This document shows, in pieces, positions 23,635 to 35,147 of a stretch of 35,147 nt of DNA (its first letter is position 1; each line of letters starts with the position of its first letter). The notes beneath the pieces were generated by a model. It worked only from the letters and a program-made list of their open reading frames with translations, was not told the DNA's origin and ran no database searches. A program made the translations under genes and the position numbers. This DNA comes from a virus. The stretch spans positions 1-35,147 of IMG/VR virus record IMGVR_UViG_3300023174_004510; one strand, given 5' to 3'.

Positions 23635-24650
23635 ACAGTGACTCCTTTTAATTTTTTAAACACTTCATATATATGAATCGCTACAGTATTTGGATGCATA
23701 ACATCCTCGATCCTTTTTCTAGCATTTGATATAATATAAGAAAGTTTATCGTAATTTCCTAGTACCAATTCAATTTTTTCTTGTAAATTGCTAAAATCGT
23801 GATTACATGCTATATACGTTTCGCCATCGACAAATATATTTGGAACCGTATCAATATAACTCATATCAGGTTTAATCAAAATAGAACCAAACATCGCGGC
23901 TTCGATATCACGCGGCGCCATTTCACCATAACCATATGGAGCTATCATAACTTTTGATGCCATGATACGATTATAATATTCATCGATAGATACACGTTCG
24001 CCGTTTCGAAGTTTAGTAATATTAAATGGCAACCGATTTATAACATCAATAGCATTTTTACGATTACGATCGTAATGAACACTTTGAGGATATCCATGTT
24101 CATATACTGTATCTTTTGTAGGATATTGAAACATTGCGGATACATCATATTGTTTTTCGATATGATACCATTGCGGTTGTATACCTGCCCAATGAGTCAT
24201 TAACCAATTAGTACCTGATAATACTATACGATCTGAATATAGATCAAAGTCATTTAATGAATAATCACCTTCGCCCCAGTAATATCGTCCCAATTGCCAT
24301 CCTTGTTTATATAAACTACGATCCTTTAAAAGACTATTTTTTAATAGTAACAAGGCATTTGACTGTTTAAATACTTCGTATGAGCCGATCAATGAAGTAG
24401 AATCTTGGCCATCAATTAACATATAATCACCAGTAATCGATGATAAAAATTCTAATCCGTCGTTAACAGACTGCTCTAACGAAACCTTTTTATTAAGAAA
24501 ACTAGCTTGAGCTACCCAAGCATAGTCATATGAATCCCCAATCGTAAATTCAATTCCTATATCACGTAAACTATGTTGTGCATATAAAAATGGACGAAAT
24601 GTACATTCGTTACGATGTTTCTCCGATTCATACAATTTTATTTTTATCAT
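23631..24650 (-). CDS. GT-B-type glycosyltransferase
   Basis: 339 aa. The C-terminal half has the GT-B donor region: MASKVMIAPYGYGEMAPRDI followed by EAAMFGSILIKPD, a rearranged E-x-E type motif, and NIFVDGETYIACNHDFSNLQ. Residues 1-150 form the acceptor half; a TGDYMLIDGQDST segment is typical of some phage and capsule glycosyltransferases. The sugar cannot be predicted. It overlaps GT2 (24647-25276) and GT25 by ATGA each, so the three are probably co-translated. Confidence 0.75.
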   Translation of the reverse strand: MIKIKLYESEKHRNECTFRPFLYAQHSLRDIGIEFTIGDSYDYAWVAQASFLNKKVSLEQSVNDGLEFLSSITGDYMLIDGQDSTSLIGSYEVFKQSNALLLLKNSLLKDRSLYKQGWQLGRYYWGEGDYSLNDFDLYSDRIVLSGTNWLMTHWAGIQPQWYHIEKQYDVSAMFQYPTKDTVYEHGYPQSVHYDRNRKNAIDVINRLPFNITKLRNGERVSIDEYYNRIMASKVMIAPYGYGEMAPRDIEAAMFGSILIKPDMSYIDTVPNIFVDGETYIACNHDFSNLQEKIELVLGNYDKLSYIISNARKRIEDVMHPNTVAIHIYEVFKKLKGVTV

Positions 24651-25276
24651 ATCGTTTCGTAATAACTATTTTGTCGTATTTGTCTGCTAATTGTTTTATC
24701 GTGATACAAACTCCATTCTTCTTCAGCTGGTAGTTGTGCAAAGTTTGCATGTCCTATAATCCGTTCATGAACTTTGTTTTCCCAATTAATTGTATCCGTA
24801 TTTCGATATACTCGGCTTTGATAGTCCGGATAATTTATCCATCCTAACTTATTTTGCGCCCATCTCCAACGAGATATATGTTCTGATGTAATACCTTCTA
24901 CGGTATTGATACGAGGTACCCATAGTAGATCTACTGGGTTATGTTCTAAGATTAATGCCAAGTTCTCTATAAGATATTCATTTGGTATTTCATCTGCATC
25001 AAGTTGAAATATATAATCGCCTTTACAATATTGACGTAGGTTATTTTTAAATGCGGCAAAGTCTTTATTCAATGAATACCCAATTGGGAACGCATATCCT
25101 AACGCATTGATAGTATCTAACACTTCTATAGTAACAGCATCTTCATCGTATTGAATGACAATTTCATCGCTAGGTCTAATTCTGTCTTGCAAGAACGAAA
25201 GGAGCCTTGCGAGCTCCTCATGTTCGTTACATACGGTTATTGCATAACTAATATTAGGCATTGCCATGTCTTTCAA
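24647..25276 (-). CDS. GT2-family (GT-A) glycosyltransferase
   Basis: 209 aa, short GT-A enzyme. YAITVCNEHEELARLLSFL opens the fold, EIVIQYDEDA gives the first acidic residues, and IFQLDADEIPNEYL holds the DxD (D93-A94-D95). RVYRNTDTINWENKVHERI near the C-terminus matches the WaaE/KdtX-type GT2 core-LPS transferases, which add a glucose in some bacteria. M1 (25276) overlaps the upstream gene by 23 nt; M6 (25261) gives an 8-nt overlap and is equally plausible. It marks the high-coordinate end of the AT-rich island. Confidence 0.85.
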   Translation of the reverse strand: MKDMAMPNISYAITVCNEHEELARLLSFLQDRIRPSDEIVIQYDEDAVTIEVLDTINALGYAFPIGYSLNKDFAAFKNNLRQYCKGDYIFQLDADEIPNEYLIENLALILEHNPVDLLWVPRINTVEGITSEHISRWRWAQNKLGWINYPDYQSRVYRNTDTINWENKVHERIIGHANFAQLPAEEEWSLYHDKTISRQIRQNSYYETI

Positions 25277-25730
25277 AGATTAAAGCATAGAAATGGTCCA
25301 AAGCTTCTTCAAATGATTCTTTCATGAAATATGAAATGTTTTCATCTAGAATTCCTTGAGTATAATATTGATCCGGACTACCGGGAATTGGAAAATCTTT
25401 TTGACGCTCCTCCGGAATATCTGAGATAAATGATACTGCCCAATTCCATGACTTATCTGTTCCATCTGGATATAACATAACTCCCATGGCCATGGCTGTC
25501 ATTGGATACCAACGATGTTCATCATGTACAACACTTAAACTGCGTACTAACATTGGTACTTTATCATGAAACTCTTGTTGAGTCTCACTACCTTCTTTAA
25601 GACGATCGCTAGTCTGAAATCCCGTATCGAAACATACTCGACTTTCGCCTTGCATATCATCATGTTCTACTATTACACGTTTATTTCCGGTAAATGGAGA
25701 AATGGCATCAAAATCTACTTCGTAACTCAT
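25254..25730 (-). CDS. Phage protein of unknown function between glycosyltransferases
   Basis: 158 aa, not recognised. Soluble, acidic, rich in aromatic residues and Met (AMAMGVMLYPDG). The central SWNWAVSFISDIPEERQKDF and the C-terminal helix FEEALDHFYALIFERHG look like a compact alpha/beta domain. No catalytic motif or cysteine pair. It overlaps the GT-B gene upstream by ATGA and the GT2 gene downstream. Codon and base composition resemble the replication block rather than the AT-rich island, so it belongs with the two large GT-B genes. Confidence 0.7.
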   Translation of the reverse strand: MSYEVDFDAISPFTGNKRVIVEHDDMQGESRVCFDTGFQTSDRLKEGSETQQEFHDKVPMLVRSLSVVHDEHRWYPMTAMAMGVMLYPDGTDKSWNWAVSFISDIPEERQKDFPIPGSPDQYYTQGILDENISYFMKESFEEALDHFYALIFERHGNA

Positions 25731-27067
25731 TCTGTAACTTTCTTTAATTTTGGCAATTGAATTTTTGGAAGTTCGGTAGTCTCACCAACTTTCTTTAGTT
25801 TTGGTAACTGTAACTGAATAGGTTGGGCACCATACTTAGTTTTAACTTCTTTTAATATATTCACAATCTTATCGCGTAACACTTCATACGAAAAATTGGT
25901 ACGGATTCGTTGACTTTGTTTAACACTTTTGGCAATACAATCTTTATAATTTTCCATGACATGTTTCATCATCTTACCTGCGAATTGATAATTGACAACA
26001 AACCATTGAGATTGATCAATAATCCATTGATTACGGGCATCCTTAGGAACTTCCTTTAGCTCTCCAGGTAACATGAAACATGTTTCATCATCGCAAAAAT
26101 CGGTATGACCTGACCAATTGGAAACGATAATTGGCTTACCGGACATTCCAAATTCTGCTAACGGTCTACCAAATCCTTCTCCATGGGTCAGACTAATCAT
26201 GGCTTTGATCTTGGAATGGTTATACAAAGTATTCATTTCTTCATTACTTAGATCCCCATGAATCAAATATATTGATGGAGCTTTCTTACCATATGGTTCT
26301 GTTAGCTTACGAATCTTAGTAAGGCATTCTTCGCGATCCATGATACTAAATGTAGCACCACTGGTTTTCAAAATCAATGCTGGCTTGTTCTGGGGTGCCT
26401 TATCTTTAAAGGTTTCACAAAATACTTGAATAGTTCTGCCAATATCTTTGCGATCTGACCCAATATCTCCTTGAAGCCAATGTCCTACAAATAAAAATGC
26501 GAATTGCTCTTTTACTTCATCTAGAATTTCTTTTACAGAAGATTCAGTTACAACTTTGCGAAATACTTCGGTATCAACAGATTCTGAAAGAACATGTACC
26601 GGCTTTTCCAACTTAAGAACTCCTTCTGCTTGGTTGGTTTGTTGATTGCGTTTTTCATATTGGCATGCTTCAAATACTTGTTTTGAGTGGTTGCTTGATA
26701 CATACGTGACATCCATTCGGTTCAATCCTTCAATCCATTCCGGAGCACATAATGTCGTTTCGATTCCAGCAGTCATGCCGATGTTGTATTTAGTACCGGC
26801 TCTCATGAATTCGTTTGGAATAGATAATTGAATAAAGATATCTGGACTAGGTAGTTGTGGTTCATGAGTAATATGATTCTTGATATCAGTATACAATGGA
26901 TCATCATATTCCAATGCATCTACCGGACATTGACCCCATGGCATTGAAATAAATTTGATATCAAACTCATCTCGTAGCTCTAACAATGCTCGAGCAATTT
27001 CTCTTGCTCTATCACCATATCCTGACCTAGTAGCGACTGGTGATTGAAAATATAACTTTGGTTTCAT
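25727..27067 (-). CDS. GT-B (GT4-like) glycosyltransferase with two C-terminal IQLPKLKKV-type repeats
   Basis: 446 aa. TRSGYGDRAREIARAL (13-28) is the glycine-rich acceptor loop; LFVGHWLQGDIGSDRKDI leads the donor half; and HGEGFGRPLAEFGMSGKPII carries the E297-x7-E305 motif of retaining GT4 enzymes. After the catalytic domain a linker leads to LQLPKLKKV (419-427) and IQLPKLKKV (436-444), just before the stop. The same nonapeptide opens the protein encoded upstream. It looks like a docking peptide shared by the pair. ATGA overlaps on both sides. Confidence 0.85.
   Translation of the reverse strand: MKPKLYFQSPVATRSGYGDRAREIARALLELRDEFDIKFISMPWGQCPVDALEYDDPLYTDIKNHITHEPQLPSPDIFIQLSIPNEFMRAGTKYNIGMTAGIETTLCAPEWIEGLNRMDVTYVSSNHSKQVFEACQYEKRNQQTNQAEGVLKLEKPVHVLSESVDTEVFRKVVTESSVKEILDEVKEQFAFLFVGHWLQGDIGSDRKDIGRTIQVFCETFKDKAPQNKPALILKTSGATFSIMDREECLTKIRKLTEPYGKKAPSIYLIHGDLSNEEMNTLYNHSKIKAMISLTHGEGFGRPLAEFGMSGKPIIVSNWSGHTDFCDDETCFMLPGELKEVPKDARNQWIIDQSQWFVVNYQFAGKMMKHVMENYKDCIAKSVKQSQRIRTNFSYEVLRDKIVNILKEVKTKYGAQPIQLQLPKLKKVGETTELPKIQLPKLKKVTE
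25736..25762 (-). repeat. IQLPKLKKV coding repeat, copy C
   Basis: Encodes IQLPKLKKV at residues 436-444 of the 446-aa glycosyltransferase. It uses ATT CAA TTG CCA for the first four codons, differing from the other copies at synonymous positions while the peptide is kept. Confidence 0.8.
25787..25813 (-). repeat. LQLPKLKKV coding repeat, copy B
   Basis: Encodes LQLPKLKKV at residues 419-427 of the same glycosyltransferase, preceded by PIQ. It uses CTA for the second Leu of the core where the other copies use TTA. A short TTELPK segment separates it from copy C. Confidence 0.8.
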
Positions 27068-28518
27068 AACACTATTCCGTTCTTTGTAATTTTTTCTGCT
27101 GGGGTATTCTTAAAGATATCAAATTGTTTTCTAGGCGTCCAATTATCAAAACATGTGTCAATGCATTCGACCATCCGTTCACACATTACTCGGGCCGACA
27201 TCATTGATTCATCAGACTTCATCCATTCATGTCCTTTGAGTCCATATGCCTTACGTTCTTCTCGAGACATATTGTACCAATACATGATAGCATCTGCCAC
27301 ATCTTCGAAACGTACTCGGTCATCAAAGATATATGGAGTAGGAATTGAGCCTTGAAGCGATCTGTTACTTGGAAATACTGGCTTTACCCATTCTCCATGT
27401 TTCTGATATCTACCGGTATGGTTACTAGCAAACTCTGTATTGAAATTGATCCAGTTACCATTCTCATCTTCAAATCTACAATGATCCTGAAGACCTCCTG
27501 TAACATTGACGATACTAGGAGTGCCGGCCATCAAAGCTTCTGCACCCGATAATCCGAATCCTTCATTACTTGCAATGTTGACAACTACATCTGCTAGATT
27601 ATAATACATGTTCATTGTACGAGCATCTACTGGCTGTTCACTAAACACTACTTTGTAATCCGGGCAAATTGCTTCTTTCACTGCAAATAGATCTGTTCCG
27701 TTCTCATCTCTAGGTTGAGTATGCATGAACAATGCACATTTCTCTGCCTTTTCTTTTGGTAACTGATCACAGAAATGTTTATAGGCTAGAATCAAATCTC
27801 CTGGCTGCTTACGACGAATATTTCGATTGTTCCAGAATACCAAAAACTCGATGCCCATATCAGAGAATCGTTGACGCATTTGTTGATATTCATTCCAATC
27901 CGGATCGGTATCTGTTAATGGCCTAACTGCTTTCTCATTGATACCATGCGGTACATATTGCACTGCCCAATCTGGTTTTGGATTACGACGTAACACATTT
28001 TTCACAATGTTCTGAGTTTGTTTTGAAATGTTCATTAACAAATCACATGACTCATAGTAATCTTCATTCCAAAAAGGATAGGGCAAATCGTCCCAAATGT
28101 TGTAATAGATTAATGGACATTGCTGACGAATCTCATGTTCCATTTGATACAACCAGATCCAATATCGTGGATCGGTGAAATGCATGATGGCATCAGGCTT
28201 ATGTTCACGAATTAGTTGTCGTAGAATAACCGGATCACCGTAACCATCCCATGGAATAAGTTTCACATCAGCATGATCAATTCCAGCATGTTTATTTACA
28301 TCTCCAGATAAATCTAAAATCTTACCGCGTTCAGGATGTTTAATAGTTGCTGCTAACTGAACCCAATCATATTTATGGGCAGTTCCAATTACAAATTCTC
28401 GGGACATTGTGGCAATGCCGGAATGTGCTCGAAGATCATCTGATAGCAATAAGATCTTCTTTTTCTTTGGCCGATTGGGATCGACTTTCTTTAATTTAGG
28501 TAACTGTATTTGTTGCAT
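27064..28518 (-). CDS. GT-B (GT4-like) glycosyltransferase with N-terminal IQLPKLKKV peptide
   Basis: 484 aa. It opens MQQIQLPKLKKV followed by a basic linker (DPNRPKKKK), then the catalytic core: ILLLSDDLRAHSGIATMSR with the glycine loop at 32-40, donor half from about residue 225 (FLVFWNNRNIRRKQP), and ASNEGFGLSGAEALMAGTPS with E319-x7-E327. The length exceeds a minimal GT4 (about 380 aa) because of the tag and C-terminal extension. It overlaps the 446-aa GT by ATGA. The leader contains a GATATTTATAA motif 19 nt before the start. Donor and acceptor unknown. Confidence 0.85.
   Translation of the reverse strand: MQQIQLPKLKKVDPNRPKKKKILLLSDDLRAHSGIATMSREFVIGTAHKYDWVQLAATIKHPERGKILDLSGDVNKHAGIDHADVKLIPWDGYGDPVILRQLIREHKPDAIMHFTDPRYWIWLYQMEHEIRQQCPLIYYNIWDDLPYPFWNEDYYESCDLLMNISKQTQNIVKNVLRRNPKPDWAVQYVPHGINEKAVRPLTDTDPDWNEYQQMRQRFSDMGIEFLVFWNNRNIRRKQPGDLILAYKHFCDQLPKEKAEKCALFMHTQPRDENGTDLFAVKEAICPDYKVVFSEQPVDARTMNMYYNLADVVVNIASNEGFGLSGAEALMAGTPSIVNVTGGLQDHCRFEDENGNWINFNTEFASNHTGRYQKHGEWVKPVFPSNRSLQGSIPTPYIFDDRVRFEDVADAIMYWYNMSREERKAYGLKGHEWMKSDESMMSARVMCERMVECIDTCFDNWTPRKQFDIFKNTPAEKITKNGIVL
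28483..28509 (-). repeat. IQLPKLKKV coding repeat, copy A
   Basis: Encodes IQLPKLKKV at residues 4-12 of the 484-aa glycosyltransferase. Codons ATA CAG TTA CCT and final GTC differ silently from copies B and C, 2.7 kb away. Position is N-terminal here and C-terminal in the partner gene. Confidence 0.8.
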
Positions 28519-32282: not shown

Positions 32283-33002
32283 TTATGCAGATTGCAATTG
32301 TACTAGATAATACATTGTTTCGAATTCGCCATCCTTGCTAAATGATACTCGAGCTAGTCCAGCATTACTTACTTCAAGACATCCTTTATCTGCCGACTTA
32401 TTGGCTACTAGAATCTCTTTCATTAGACTGCTACTAAAACAAATTGCAGACACATTGTTCTTAACAGCTGCTTTAGTTTTAAATGTAACTCGGTTAGTAT
32501 TCAATGATGAATGGTTGATAATAATATCAGCTTCACCATTCTCAGCTTTAACTGCAAAGTTTTCTGACTCTGGCAATGCATTCTTACTCTTAATGAACTT
32601 CTCAAAGAATTCACTATCGATAGTAATGTTAACATCAAAGTCTGGCATATTCTTCATTGTAGGTGCCTGACGAATAACGGCTAGGTCAGCTAACATATAT
32701 GTAATACGAGTATCAGAATCTTTAATGGACAATGAAAATGCTTTATCACCAGCACTATTAACTGAGATGTCAATTGTTTCATCCAATGCAGATAACAACT
32801 TAAGCAATTGTCCGGTTGTATAAACTCCTAACTCAGACTCTGCCAACTTCACATCTTTCATTGTTACCGTACCAACTACGTTCTGGTCATCGGATAGAAA
32901 GTTACTAACTAGATCAGTACCATCAGATACCACCTTTACCGAACTAGTATTTCCTGCTAGATAATACTTTTCGATGAATGAAATTAATTTTTTCTTATTC
33001 AT
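32283..33002 (-). CDS. Sliding clamp, gp45-like
   Basis: 239 aa from the chosen start, close to T4 gp45 (228 aa). MNKKKLISFIEKYYLAGNTS leads; two clamp repeats with alternating strands follow, and the end FETMYYLVQLQSA is the typical last strand of a phage clamp. The clamp tethers the DNA polymerase and, in T4, transcription factors and the alpha-glucosyltransferase. A longer frame from 33095 exists but would overlap the TGT-like gene by 92 nt; the start at 33002 leaves a 1-nt gap and matches family length. Confidence 0.92.
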   Translation of the reverse strand: MNKKKLISFIEKYYLAGNTSSVKVVSDGTDLVSNFLSDDQNVVGTVTMKDVKLAESELGVYTTGQLLKLLSALDETIDISVNSAGDKAFSLSIKDSDTRITYMLADLAVIRQAPTMKNMPDFDVNITIDSEFFEKFIKSKNALPESENFAVKAENGEADIIINHSSLNTNRVTFKTKAAVKNNVSAICFSSSLMKEILVANKSADKGCLEVSNAGLARVSFSKDGEFETMYYLVQLQSA

Positions 33003-33003
33003 A

Positions 33004-34188
33004 TTACATTTCAAAAAATTGATTAAACACGTTATTGTTCGGCAAGCTACGAGTATCGCCTCCAAACTTATTATACATTTGACGATACTTCTCAAATACT
33101 AGTACCGGGTCATCAGAAGTAAACATTTCTTCAATACTACGAAGAACATTGTACATATCAGATGGCACAACTGTTTCTAGCAATTCGGTATGACATTTCA
33201 TCATTTCATTGATTTGCTCACAGGTCTTCTGATATACAATTAAGTTGTTCAACGTCATACGAGTTGTTACATCACCTTTATATGAAGATACATCACCAAA
33301 AGTAAATCCTTCTGATACTGGATGCCCATATGGATTAGGTACTGGATCTGATGCGTTATATGGAAGATTCTCTCCTTTAGGAAAATACAGATCCACAAAT
33401 GTCATGTTACGGAATTGCGGAGTATGTAGGTATGTTCCGTATACCGGATACAATCCTGGAGATGAACTATCTGTTGATACTTGAATTCTACCGCCATGAT
33501 ACTTGTTAAACATCTTTTGGATAAATGCCAAGATAAAGAAATCGGAAATCTTTGAAATACCTAGTACGTGTACATATTCATTTCTTGTCTTATCAAATTC
33601 TTTATGCTTAAGCATTGGAGCCAACGCAGACATTAACATGGTCAATCTCTTTTGAGCTCCCCCTAAACACCATCCAGAGAAATCGAAATCTTTAACTTTC
33701 AAATACCAATGCTCATATTCTTCAAGATTGTTACCTTGAATCACATTGAGGAACTTGGTCTTACCAGATTGGTTCTCGGCAAAGTATTTGAAGTTATCAT
33801 AGCTAATATCTAAACACTCATAGAACTTGCCATCATACTTTGCTCGAGGCGGAATATCCAAGTTAACTGCCAGGTCGGTATTGTTTTCTAACCAATTGAA
33901 AATAGTTTCTTTGAATTTTGGATCCCATTTAATAGCACCCGTTGCCAATTGGAAACCTCCGGAGTCACCTAACACTGTCACTGATTTTTCTAGTCCATAC
34001 ATTGTACGGGTATCTGGCCATTTATAATGGTGACCAGCTGTTACTAGAAAATACGGATGTCGCCACTCCGCAGGAAATTCTTCCGAATAAAAGCGAGATG
34101 TAAGTCCTGGCTTCACTTCTTTATTCTTTTTGAAGTAATCAGAACAACCACCTGCTGATAGGGAAGGATAATAAATTAAATCTTTCAT
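33004..34188 (-). CDS. TGT/DpdA-superfamily base-exchange enzyme
   Basis: 394 aa. The TIM-barrel motifs of tRNA-guanine transglycosylase occur in order: VLGDSGGFQ (D75), VIQGN (Q151), CLGG (G176-G177), HVLGIS (207-212), and D240 in VSTDSSS as the candidate nucleophile. The zinc site CxCxxC of bacterial TGT is absent. Phage members with this layout include DpdA, which inserts 7-deazaguanines in DNA; a TGT-like tRNA role is the alternative. No preQ0 or other 7-deazaguanine synthesis gene is in the window. It overlaps the upstream GT by ATGA and borders the sliding clamp. Confidence 0.8.
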   Translation of the reverse strand: MKDLIYYPSLSAGGCSDYFKKNKEVKPGLTSRFYSEEFPAEWRHPYFLVTAGHHYKWPDTRTMYGLEKSVTVLGDSGGFQLATGAIKWDPKFKETIFNWLENNTDLAVNLDIPPRAKYDGKFYECLDISYDNFKYFAENQSGKTKFLNVIQGNNLEEYEHWYLKVKDFDFSGWCLGGAQKRLTMLMSALAPMLKHKEFDKTRNEYVHVLGISKISDFFILAFIQKMFNKYHGGRIQVSTDSSSPGLYPVYGTYLHTPQFRNMTFVDLYFPKGENLPYNASDPVPNPYGHPVSEGFTFGDVSSYKGDVTTRMTLNNLIVYQKTCEQINEMMKCHTELLETVVPSDMYNVLRSIEEMFTSDDPVLVFEKYRQMYNKFGGDTRSLPNNNVFNQFFEM

Positions 34189-35147
34189 TGGTTATCTTGT
34201 TTTAATAAATGCTCACATAATGCACGTTCATGCCATACATTGATTTCGAATTTTGGTTCATTGGCTACGATCCATCCTTCCATTCTACGTCCTAGATCTG
34301 CTACCTGAGCGAAATCATAGTGACATCCAAAATGATCTTGTTTCGTAACTTCAAGCAATCCTGTCAATGCACTTGCAAGATCAAAGGCATGATACATTCG
34401 ATCTGCCGGAACAAATTCTGGGAAGCTTCGGAAGTTAGGGAACATCACATCAATGCCAAATGTAGTTCCTTCCAATACTGTCCATGATACATAGTCCTGC
34501 AGCGAAGTATTGAATAGAACCATACCAGTTGCTAATTCCGTATAGTATTCTTCTTTGCTAAGGCCGGTAAGAATTTTAAACCTAGGTTCTTCAATTGAAT
34601 AATTGATCAATGCCTCAACTGCACCAGGCATCATGCTACGTAAATGTTTACCACTTGTAGTGATATGCCATTCATAGTCTTCACGGCATTTAAGAAATTG
34701 CTTGGCAACCTCTAACATGAAGAATGGATTCTTTTCTTTGTCAAATCTAGATGTATATACAATTACTTTCTTACGAGGTTCTTTTCGTAGTTCATCATAG
34801 TTAGGAAGAACCTTAAGGGTCAATTCTTTATGCAATGGTAACGATACCACATGGATAGGAGCATTGAAGCCGGCTGCTCGTAATTGCTCTTTATGAATGG
34901 TGCTACCTACAAAGATACCTGCCATTCGCTTATCAATACCTAATTCAATAGGACGCATCCAATCTCTCATTGCCCAAGTGAAGTCATATTCATCAACTGA
35001 TTGAGCATGTAACATGGAATAGAACTTCACATTGATATTGTATAGATCCAATGCATAGAAGATACTTTCAATTCCAGGATGCCAAAAGTCTTGCAAGAAT
35101 ACCACATCACCATCGGATACCATTTCTTGATTAAGCATATCTAGAAA
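34185..35147 (-). CDS. GT-B-like glycosyltransferase, 5' end cut by the window
   Basis: 317 aa from an internal ATG at 35138, but the frame stays open to 35147 and the visible N-terminus (MLNQEMVSDG) lacks the first GT-B Rossmann strand, so the true start is probably outside. IVYTSRFDKEKNPFFMLEVAK begins the donor half and SWTVLEGTTFGIDVMFPNFR carries a rearranged E-containing donor motif. A DNA or glycan acceptor cannot be told. Its stop overlaps the TGT-like gene by ATGA, a coupling that suggests a shared function. Confidence 0.75.
   Translation of the reverse strand, partial: FLDMLNQEMVSDGDVVFLQDFWHPGIESIFYALDLYNINVKFYSMLHAQSVDEYDFTWAMRDWMRPIELGIDKRMAGIFVGSTIHKEQLRAAGFNAPIHVVSLPLHKELTLKVLPNYDELRKEPRKKVIVYTSRFDKEKNPFFMLEVAKQFLKCREDYEWHITTSGKHLRSMMPGAVEALINYSIEEPRFKILTGLSKEEYYTELATGMVLFNTSLQDYVSWTVLEGTTFGIDVMFPNFRSFPEFVPADRMYHAFDLASALTGLLEVTKQDHFGCHYDFAQVADLGRRMEGWIVANEPKFEINVWHERALCEHLLKQDNQ

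Follow-up and report, generated by a model that had tools for sequence, protein, structure and literature searches.

A peptide shared by two adjacent glycosyltransferases

In an aquatic phage, two adjacent GT-B enzymes share a short peptide, placed near the start of one and at the end of the other. The stretch of DNA analysed here, called the window below, is a 35,147-base virus record and is therefore possibly a fragment. GT1 (27064..28518, minus strand; 484 aa) was recognized from its reading frame, Pfam matches and AF2 model, and GT2 (25727..27067, minus strand; 446 aa) from its reading frame, PF00534 and PHROG 2170; the two frames overlap by 4 bases. The tag occurs once in GT1, as IQLPKLKKV at residues 4–12 (28483..28509, minus strand), and twice in GT2: as LQLPKLKKV at residues 419–427 (25787..25813, minus strand), the constant unit, which nearly all relatives retain, and as IQLPKLKKV at residues 436–444 (25736..25762, minus strand), an optional further unit. 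The coordinates and residue numbers of all three copies in the initial annotation are correct, and six-frame translation of the window contains no further LPKLKKV.

The observed sharing of this peptide is not due to chance. A 9-mer common to GT1 and GT2 was found in none of 20,000 composition-preserving shuffles; the longest common peptide had eight residues and was reached once. Of the nine codons of the GT1 copy, five differ from those of the second GT2 copy, each of them synonymously, as the initial annotation had noted in describing a peptide kept through codon change.

Features of GT1 and GT2

Both proteins are predicted GT4-like GT-B glycosyltransferases, on the basis of profile matches and structure models. 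GT1 matches PF20706 and PF00534 above the cut-off. The Pfam Glycos_transf_1 scores, 26.9 bits for GT1 and 26.4 bits for GT2, are borderline against a gathering score of 26.4. The AF2 models (monomers only, built with 72–75 related sequences; the GT2 input alignment left out the row of Microcystis phage Mel-JY01, L107) have mean pLDDT values of 93.4 for GT1 and 93.1 for GT2, with confident GT-B cores. Two Rossmann-like domains are found in the models, and the best Foldseek matches (E ~1e-18) are to GT4-type structures, with 3oy2 as the top PDB match and MshA and sucrose-phosphate synthase (SPS) also among the matches. The Glu-x7-Glu motif is kept: E319 and E327 of GT1 and E297 of GT2 are invariant, and E305 of GT2 is nearly so.

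The tags lie in unstructured segments outside the folded domains. They have no secondary structure in the models, where pLDDT falls to about 63 for GT1 residues 1–10 and to about 58–71 for GT2 residues 411–446, and the Pfam matches of both proteins stop short of them. This agrees with the earlier placing of the peptide outside both catalytic cores. The low pLDDT of the tags could reflect an interface that is absent from a monomer model. The start of GT1 is credible because its Met stays among relatives while the residues upstream of it diverge.

Relatives of the gene pair

A search with GT1 gave 127 IMG/VR relatives, of which 80 were kept; further GT1 relatives occur in Flavobacterium phage immuto, Mel-JY01, Rhodothermus phage RM378 and others. 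GT2 relatives were gathered by walking from GT1 loci. Wherever the contig of a fetched close relative leaves room to judge, GT1 lies immediately before GT2; the three listed exceptions are overlapping frames with GT1 present. The GT2 relatives are otherwise 39–53% identical to the window GT2. A 484 kb uncultured phage (LR756508) has a GT1 relative with no adjacent GT2 (L237:3950-5266).

There are four relatives of genome scale: G001 (157 kb; the L006 contig), G004 (174 kb), immuto (160 kb) and Mel-JY01 (190 kb). Phage immuto, with a tagged GT2, also carries a set of genes annotated for 7-deazaguanine DNA modification (L103:18607-37015; QueC, QueD, QueE, FolE, QueF and DpdA). In Mel-JY01, GT1 is split into two ORFs (L107:13417-14932; Mel-JY01 83441-84932) and the GT2 tail of the same genome is degenerate. 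RM378 has an overlapping GT1–GT2 pair without any tag (L236:3899-6627); its p014, annotated as hypothetical, matches the GT2 profile (E 2.6e-9).

Conservation of the motif in GT2 tails

The C-terminal tag of GT2 is nearly universal among relatives and constant in position, so the peptide is conserved in homologues, the lack of which had been named as a possible refutation. Its consensus is [LI]-[KQE]-L-P-x-L-[KR]-K-[IV]. Unique tails contain one to four LPxL units, most often two, and the usual form is an octapeptide tandem, xLKLPxLKK-IELPKLKK; in the clade of the window a linker separates the units. Phage immuto retains the tail as ...VQLKLPTLKKIELPQTKKVEIPRLKKL.

Among 145 distinct first units, picked with a pattern already requiring P, the flanking hydrophobic residues and the basic pair, P and the second K are present in 145/145, while the L that precedes P, like the first K, is present in 144/145. 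Each of these four residues is written with more than one codon. Because the pattern presupposes residues of these kinds, an alignment of 73 representatives serves as the independent measure of conservation; in it, L reaches 97 per cent, P 100 per cent, the next L 90 per cent, and the two K 83 and 92 per cent. Between the units, Glu is common (64% at the IELP position); Q is found in 63/145 first units, often as QLKLPQL, and the tails are Lys-rich and hydrophobic, with a mean net charge of about +4 among unique tails.

The tag thus combines a few strictly conserved residues with mixed codons, a pattern of selection at the peptide level. Frequent disruption of the tail, by frameshift or by broken codons, in GT2 genes that are otherwise intact was not seen among the relatives, and there is no obvious sign of homogenization between copies within a genome. 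The initial proposal of selection on the peptide rather than DNA copying is strongly supported by the invariant residues, the varied codons, the many relatives and the restriction to one gene pair. A signal at the DNA or RNA level was rejected because the codons vary. A functionless low-complexity repeat or recent DNA copying, with which a unit number of one to four, open to gains and losses, would be compatible, has a practically negligible probability given the near-invariant residues, diverse codons and constant position in GT2s of such divergence and the lack of obvious homogenization.

Distribution of the tag in GT1 and other proteins

Among the 138 distinct GT1s, 16 have the N-terminal tag, in two cases only as a loose match (MKLPELES, MNIPKLQS). 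Most other GT1s begin in a MKEGYIPKEQRKKI-like manner. In the tree of GT1 cores, a single 25-leaf clade (support 0.918) holds all the tagged GT1s; its untagged members are very short at the N-terminus (MAKKKI, MNKKKI and the like). Since some internal supports of this tree are low, the tag may have arisen once, with later losses, or twice.

A tandem scan of IMG/VR gave at least 120 stretches. BLAST assigned the listed stretches to GT2 with three exceptions, each a short frame at the edge of a contig with the same tail at its end. The same scan of 84,980 bacterial and archaeal genomes gave four matches: one is a GT2 (L232), and the other three are repetitive or short frames with no relation to it. 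Two bacterial MAG contigs, L234 and L235, have LKK-type tandem repeats (HFPRLKK; LPKVKLPKVKLPKLKK); the short frames that contain these are not related to GT2. Among 12,107 distinct ORFs, GT2s account for 292 occurrences of the pattern LPx[LIMV][KR]K, GT1s for 14 and other ORFs for 10, almost all of the last being internal; these counts show the position of the motif within loci and are not an unbiased census, because GT1 or the tandem was the query with which the loci were retrieved.

No other protein with the tag near an end was found in G001, G004, immuto or Mel-JY01. The search for the peptide that had been suggested therefore returns only GT1 and GT2 in the window, a widespread GT2 tag, and no other tagged protein in the four genome-scale relatives. 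Limited literature searches found no description of the tag, and no paper with the string LPKLKK was among the best 15 of 35 matches of one of them.

Gene neighbourhood and candidate partners

GT1 and GT2 belong to a conserved cassette. Directly after GT2 lies the gene of a small protein, p158 (25254..25730, minus strand), and then that of a GT-A enzyme of glycosyltransferase family 2 (24647..25276, minus strand; PF00535), the fourth member of the cassette, relatives of which were found in 145 loci. Downstream of the pair, a glycan-synthesis island of about 20 kb (window 5116-25276) encodes glycosyltransferases of families 25, 11, 10 and 8, a GDP-mannose dehydratase-like enzyme, two DegT-type aminotransferases, UDP-galactopyranose mutase, a WbqC-like protein, a PIG-L-like deacetylase and a methyltransferase. 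For many genes of the island, the matching loci contain few relatives. Among the window proteins scanned, none was recognized as a flippase or polymerase. The cassette looks like one for glycan synthesis on a cytoplasmic acceptor, which is probably a phage structure.

Upstream of GT1 there are two clamp-loader subunits, a PD-(D/E)XK nuclease and a sliding clamp (32283..33095, minus strand; PHROG 223 'DNA polymerase processivity factor', E 5e-12). A third, weakly recognizable GT-B lies upstream of the clamp (34185-35138).

None of p158, the GT-A enzyme and the clamp behaves as an obligatory partner of the tag. The p158 family follows GT2 in most loci and is a zinc-ribbon protein in many relatives. 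As an obligatory partner it is not supported: tails are intact where an unrelated small protein replaces it (14 hits), and it is absent from the slot beside intact tails in L202, L127, L168 and L122, these p158-less contigs being partial, so that a copy elsewhere is possible. In the clade of the window, the zinc ligands of p158 are lost (SPITGN...CMESG); elsewhere in the tagged-GT1 clade this slot is empty or is taken by a small protein of another kind. The slot was compared in the window and in L136, L173, L184, L227, L119 and L197, and tagging of GT1 partly coincides with its change. The GT-A enzyme was likewise rejected, as it was not found within 4 kb downstream in the intact-tail loci L119 and L179. 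Only GT1 always adjoins a tagged GT2. A likeness to the targeting peptide of the T4 prohead core was considered but not adopted, since the main tag lies at the C-terminus.

Possible roles of the tag

The terminal motif is real, selected as a peptide and specific to this gene pair. We consider that the nonapeptide is probably a short linear docking motif, present, often as a tandem, in the disordered tail of GT2 and, in one clade, also at the N-terminus of GT1. This is the best reading because the peptide is disordered, repeated in tandem, proline-containing and terminal. Each LPxLKK unit would bind a groove on one partner protein, several units giving avidity; GT2, together with GT1 in the tagged clade, would be held on one assembly, and both GT4-type transfers of the phage glycan cassette might thereby take place at the same site. 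The initial annotation had proposed a docking tag that recruits both enzymes. Docking is likely, but recruitment of both cannot be general because GT1 is untagged in most relatives, and for the same reason a partner shared by the two enzymes is only inferred. The distant, untailed pair of RM378 indicates that the tag is not needed for GT1–GT2 chemistry as such, and that it is probably an added recruitment module.

More tentatively, the LPxLKK peptides might form a private, modular address system, movable between cassette enzymes and tethering them to one phage receptor protein. This extended reading is possible although we favour it less than its negation; were it true, glycosylation would run as an assembly line on one dedicated phage protein.

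The main rival to docking on another protein is a GT1–GT2 tether, because GT1 is the only constant neighbour. The tail would then be a quaternary element that packs on a partner enzyme, either GT2 on GT1 or in a GT–GT dimer, and completes the GT1–GT2 complex. Beyond this constant adjacency, the combination of a degenerate GT2 tail with a split GT1 in Mel-JY01 is consistent with such a tether. The overlapping pair of RM378, however, has no tail, GT1's own tag in one clade would be redundant, and the AF2 model of the tagged GT1 shows no docking of the tag on the enzyme's own surface. The variable copy number and the linkers also suit avidity better than a fixed interface, and we regard the tether as rather unlikely.

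Anchoring of the enzymes to membrane or DNA by an electrostatic tail is quite improbable. In bacteria, several GT-B enzymes are attached peripherally to the membrane, and the Lys-rich, hydrophobic, positively charged composition of the tails would suit such a role. What is kept, however, is a strict sequence with an invariant P and fixed L and K positions, not a composition; Glu is frequent between the units, one proline per unit and an eight-residue spacing make no amphipathic helix, and the window has no recognized flippase or polymerase gene.

The sliding clamp had been suggested as the partner, both enzymes riding it as T4 alpha-glucosyltransferase does with gp45. The clamp is present, about 3.8 kb from GT1, and the clamp and loaders lie just upstream of the pair in the window and in several relatives; T4 alpha-glucosyltransferase pulls down gp45 (PMC13216743), and the frequent QLKLPQL form of the first unit loosely resembles bacterial clamp motifs. 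As the partner of the tag, however, the clamp is very unlikely. It is disfavoured because immuto has an intact tag with no clamp or loader found, Mel-JY01 presents the converse, no other protein is tagged and the motifs do not match. With an HMM of the window clamp family, the clamp was found in G001, G004 and Mel-JY01; in immuto no homologue was found at E 10 with filters off, nor were clamp loaders at E 1e-5, although use of a host clamp by immuto is possible. Mel-JY01 has the clamp and loaders and a degenerate tag. The tag is absent from all other proteins of the genome-scale relatives, clamp-binding proteins included. The described clamp-binding motifs are QL(S/D)LF in bacteria and LDFL in T4 (PMC9690074); the Q of the tag is not conserved, and the tag has no aromatic residue of the kind in QL(S/D)LF, Qxx[IL]xxFF or LDFL. 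In T4 itself, the contact with gp45 is not the main determinant of alpha-glucosylation (PMC13216743).

The tag offers a concrete handle on how large aquatic phages organize their glycosylation cassettes. It is carried by a widespread gene pair, and a single synthetic peptide could serve to capture the partner or the acceptor, which is usually unknown for phage glycosyltransferases.

Comparison with known systems

GT1 and GT2 share the GT-B fold, the Glu-x7-Glu motif and Pfam matches with GT4 / GT-B enzymes such as the chlorella virus protein B736L (3oy2), MshA and sucrose-phosphate synthase. They differ from them by the tag, which is particular to this phage pair and lies beyond the Pfam stretches.

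GtfA and GtfB, which O-glycosylate serine-rich repeat adhesins, are GT-B enzymes of adjacent genes and work together on a cytoplasmic protein acceptor. They resemble GT1 and GT2 as a neighbouring GT-B pair; they are not known to have a comparable tag.

T4 alpha-glucosyltransferase with gp45 resembles the proposed arrangement in that a phage glycosyltransferase binds a second protein of the phage (PMC13216743). It acts on hydroxymethylcytosine DNA and is not among the best 50 fold matches of GT1 and GT2, which resemble GT4 enzymes, and the tag of the present pair, as immuto indicates, does not require a phage clamp. The QL(S/D)LF and T4 LDFL motifs (PMC9690074) are, like the tag, short hydrophobic peptides near a protein end, and a loose QLxL is found in under half of the GT2 tails. 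The tag differs from them in having no conserved Q or aromatic residue, and in its invariant P and K and its tandem units.
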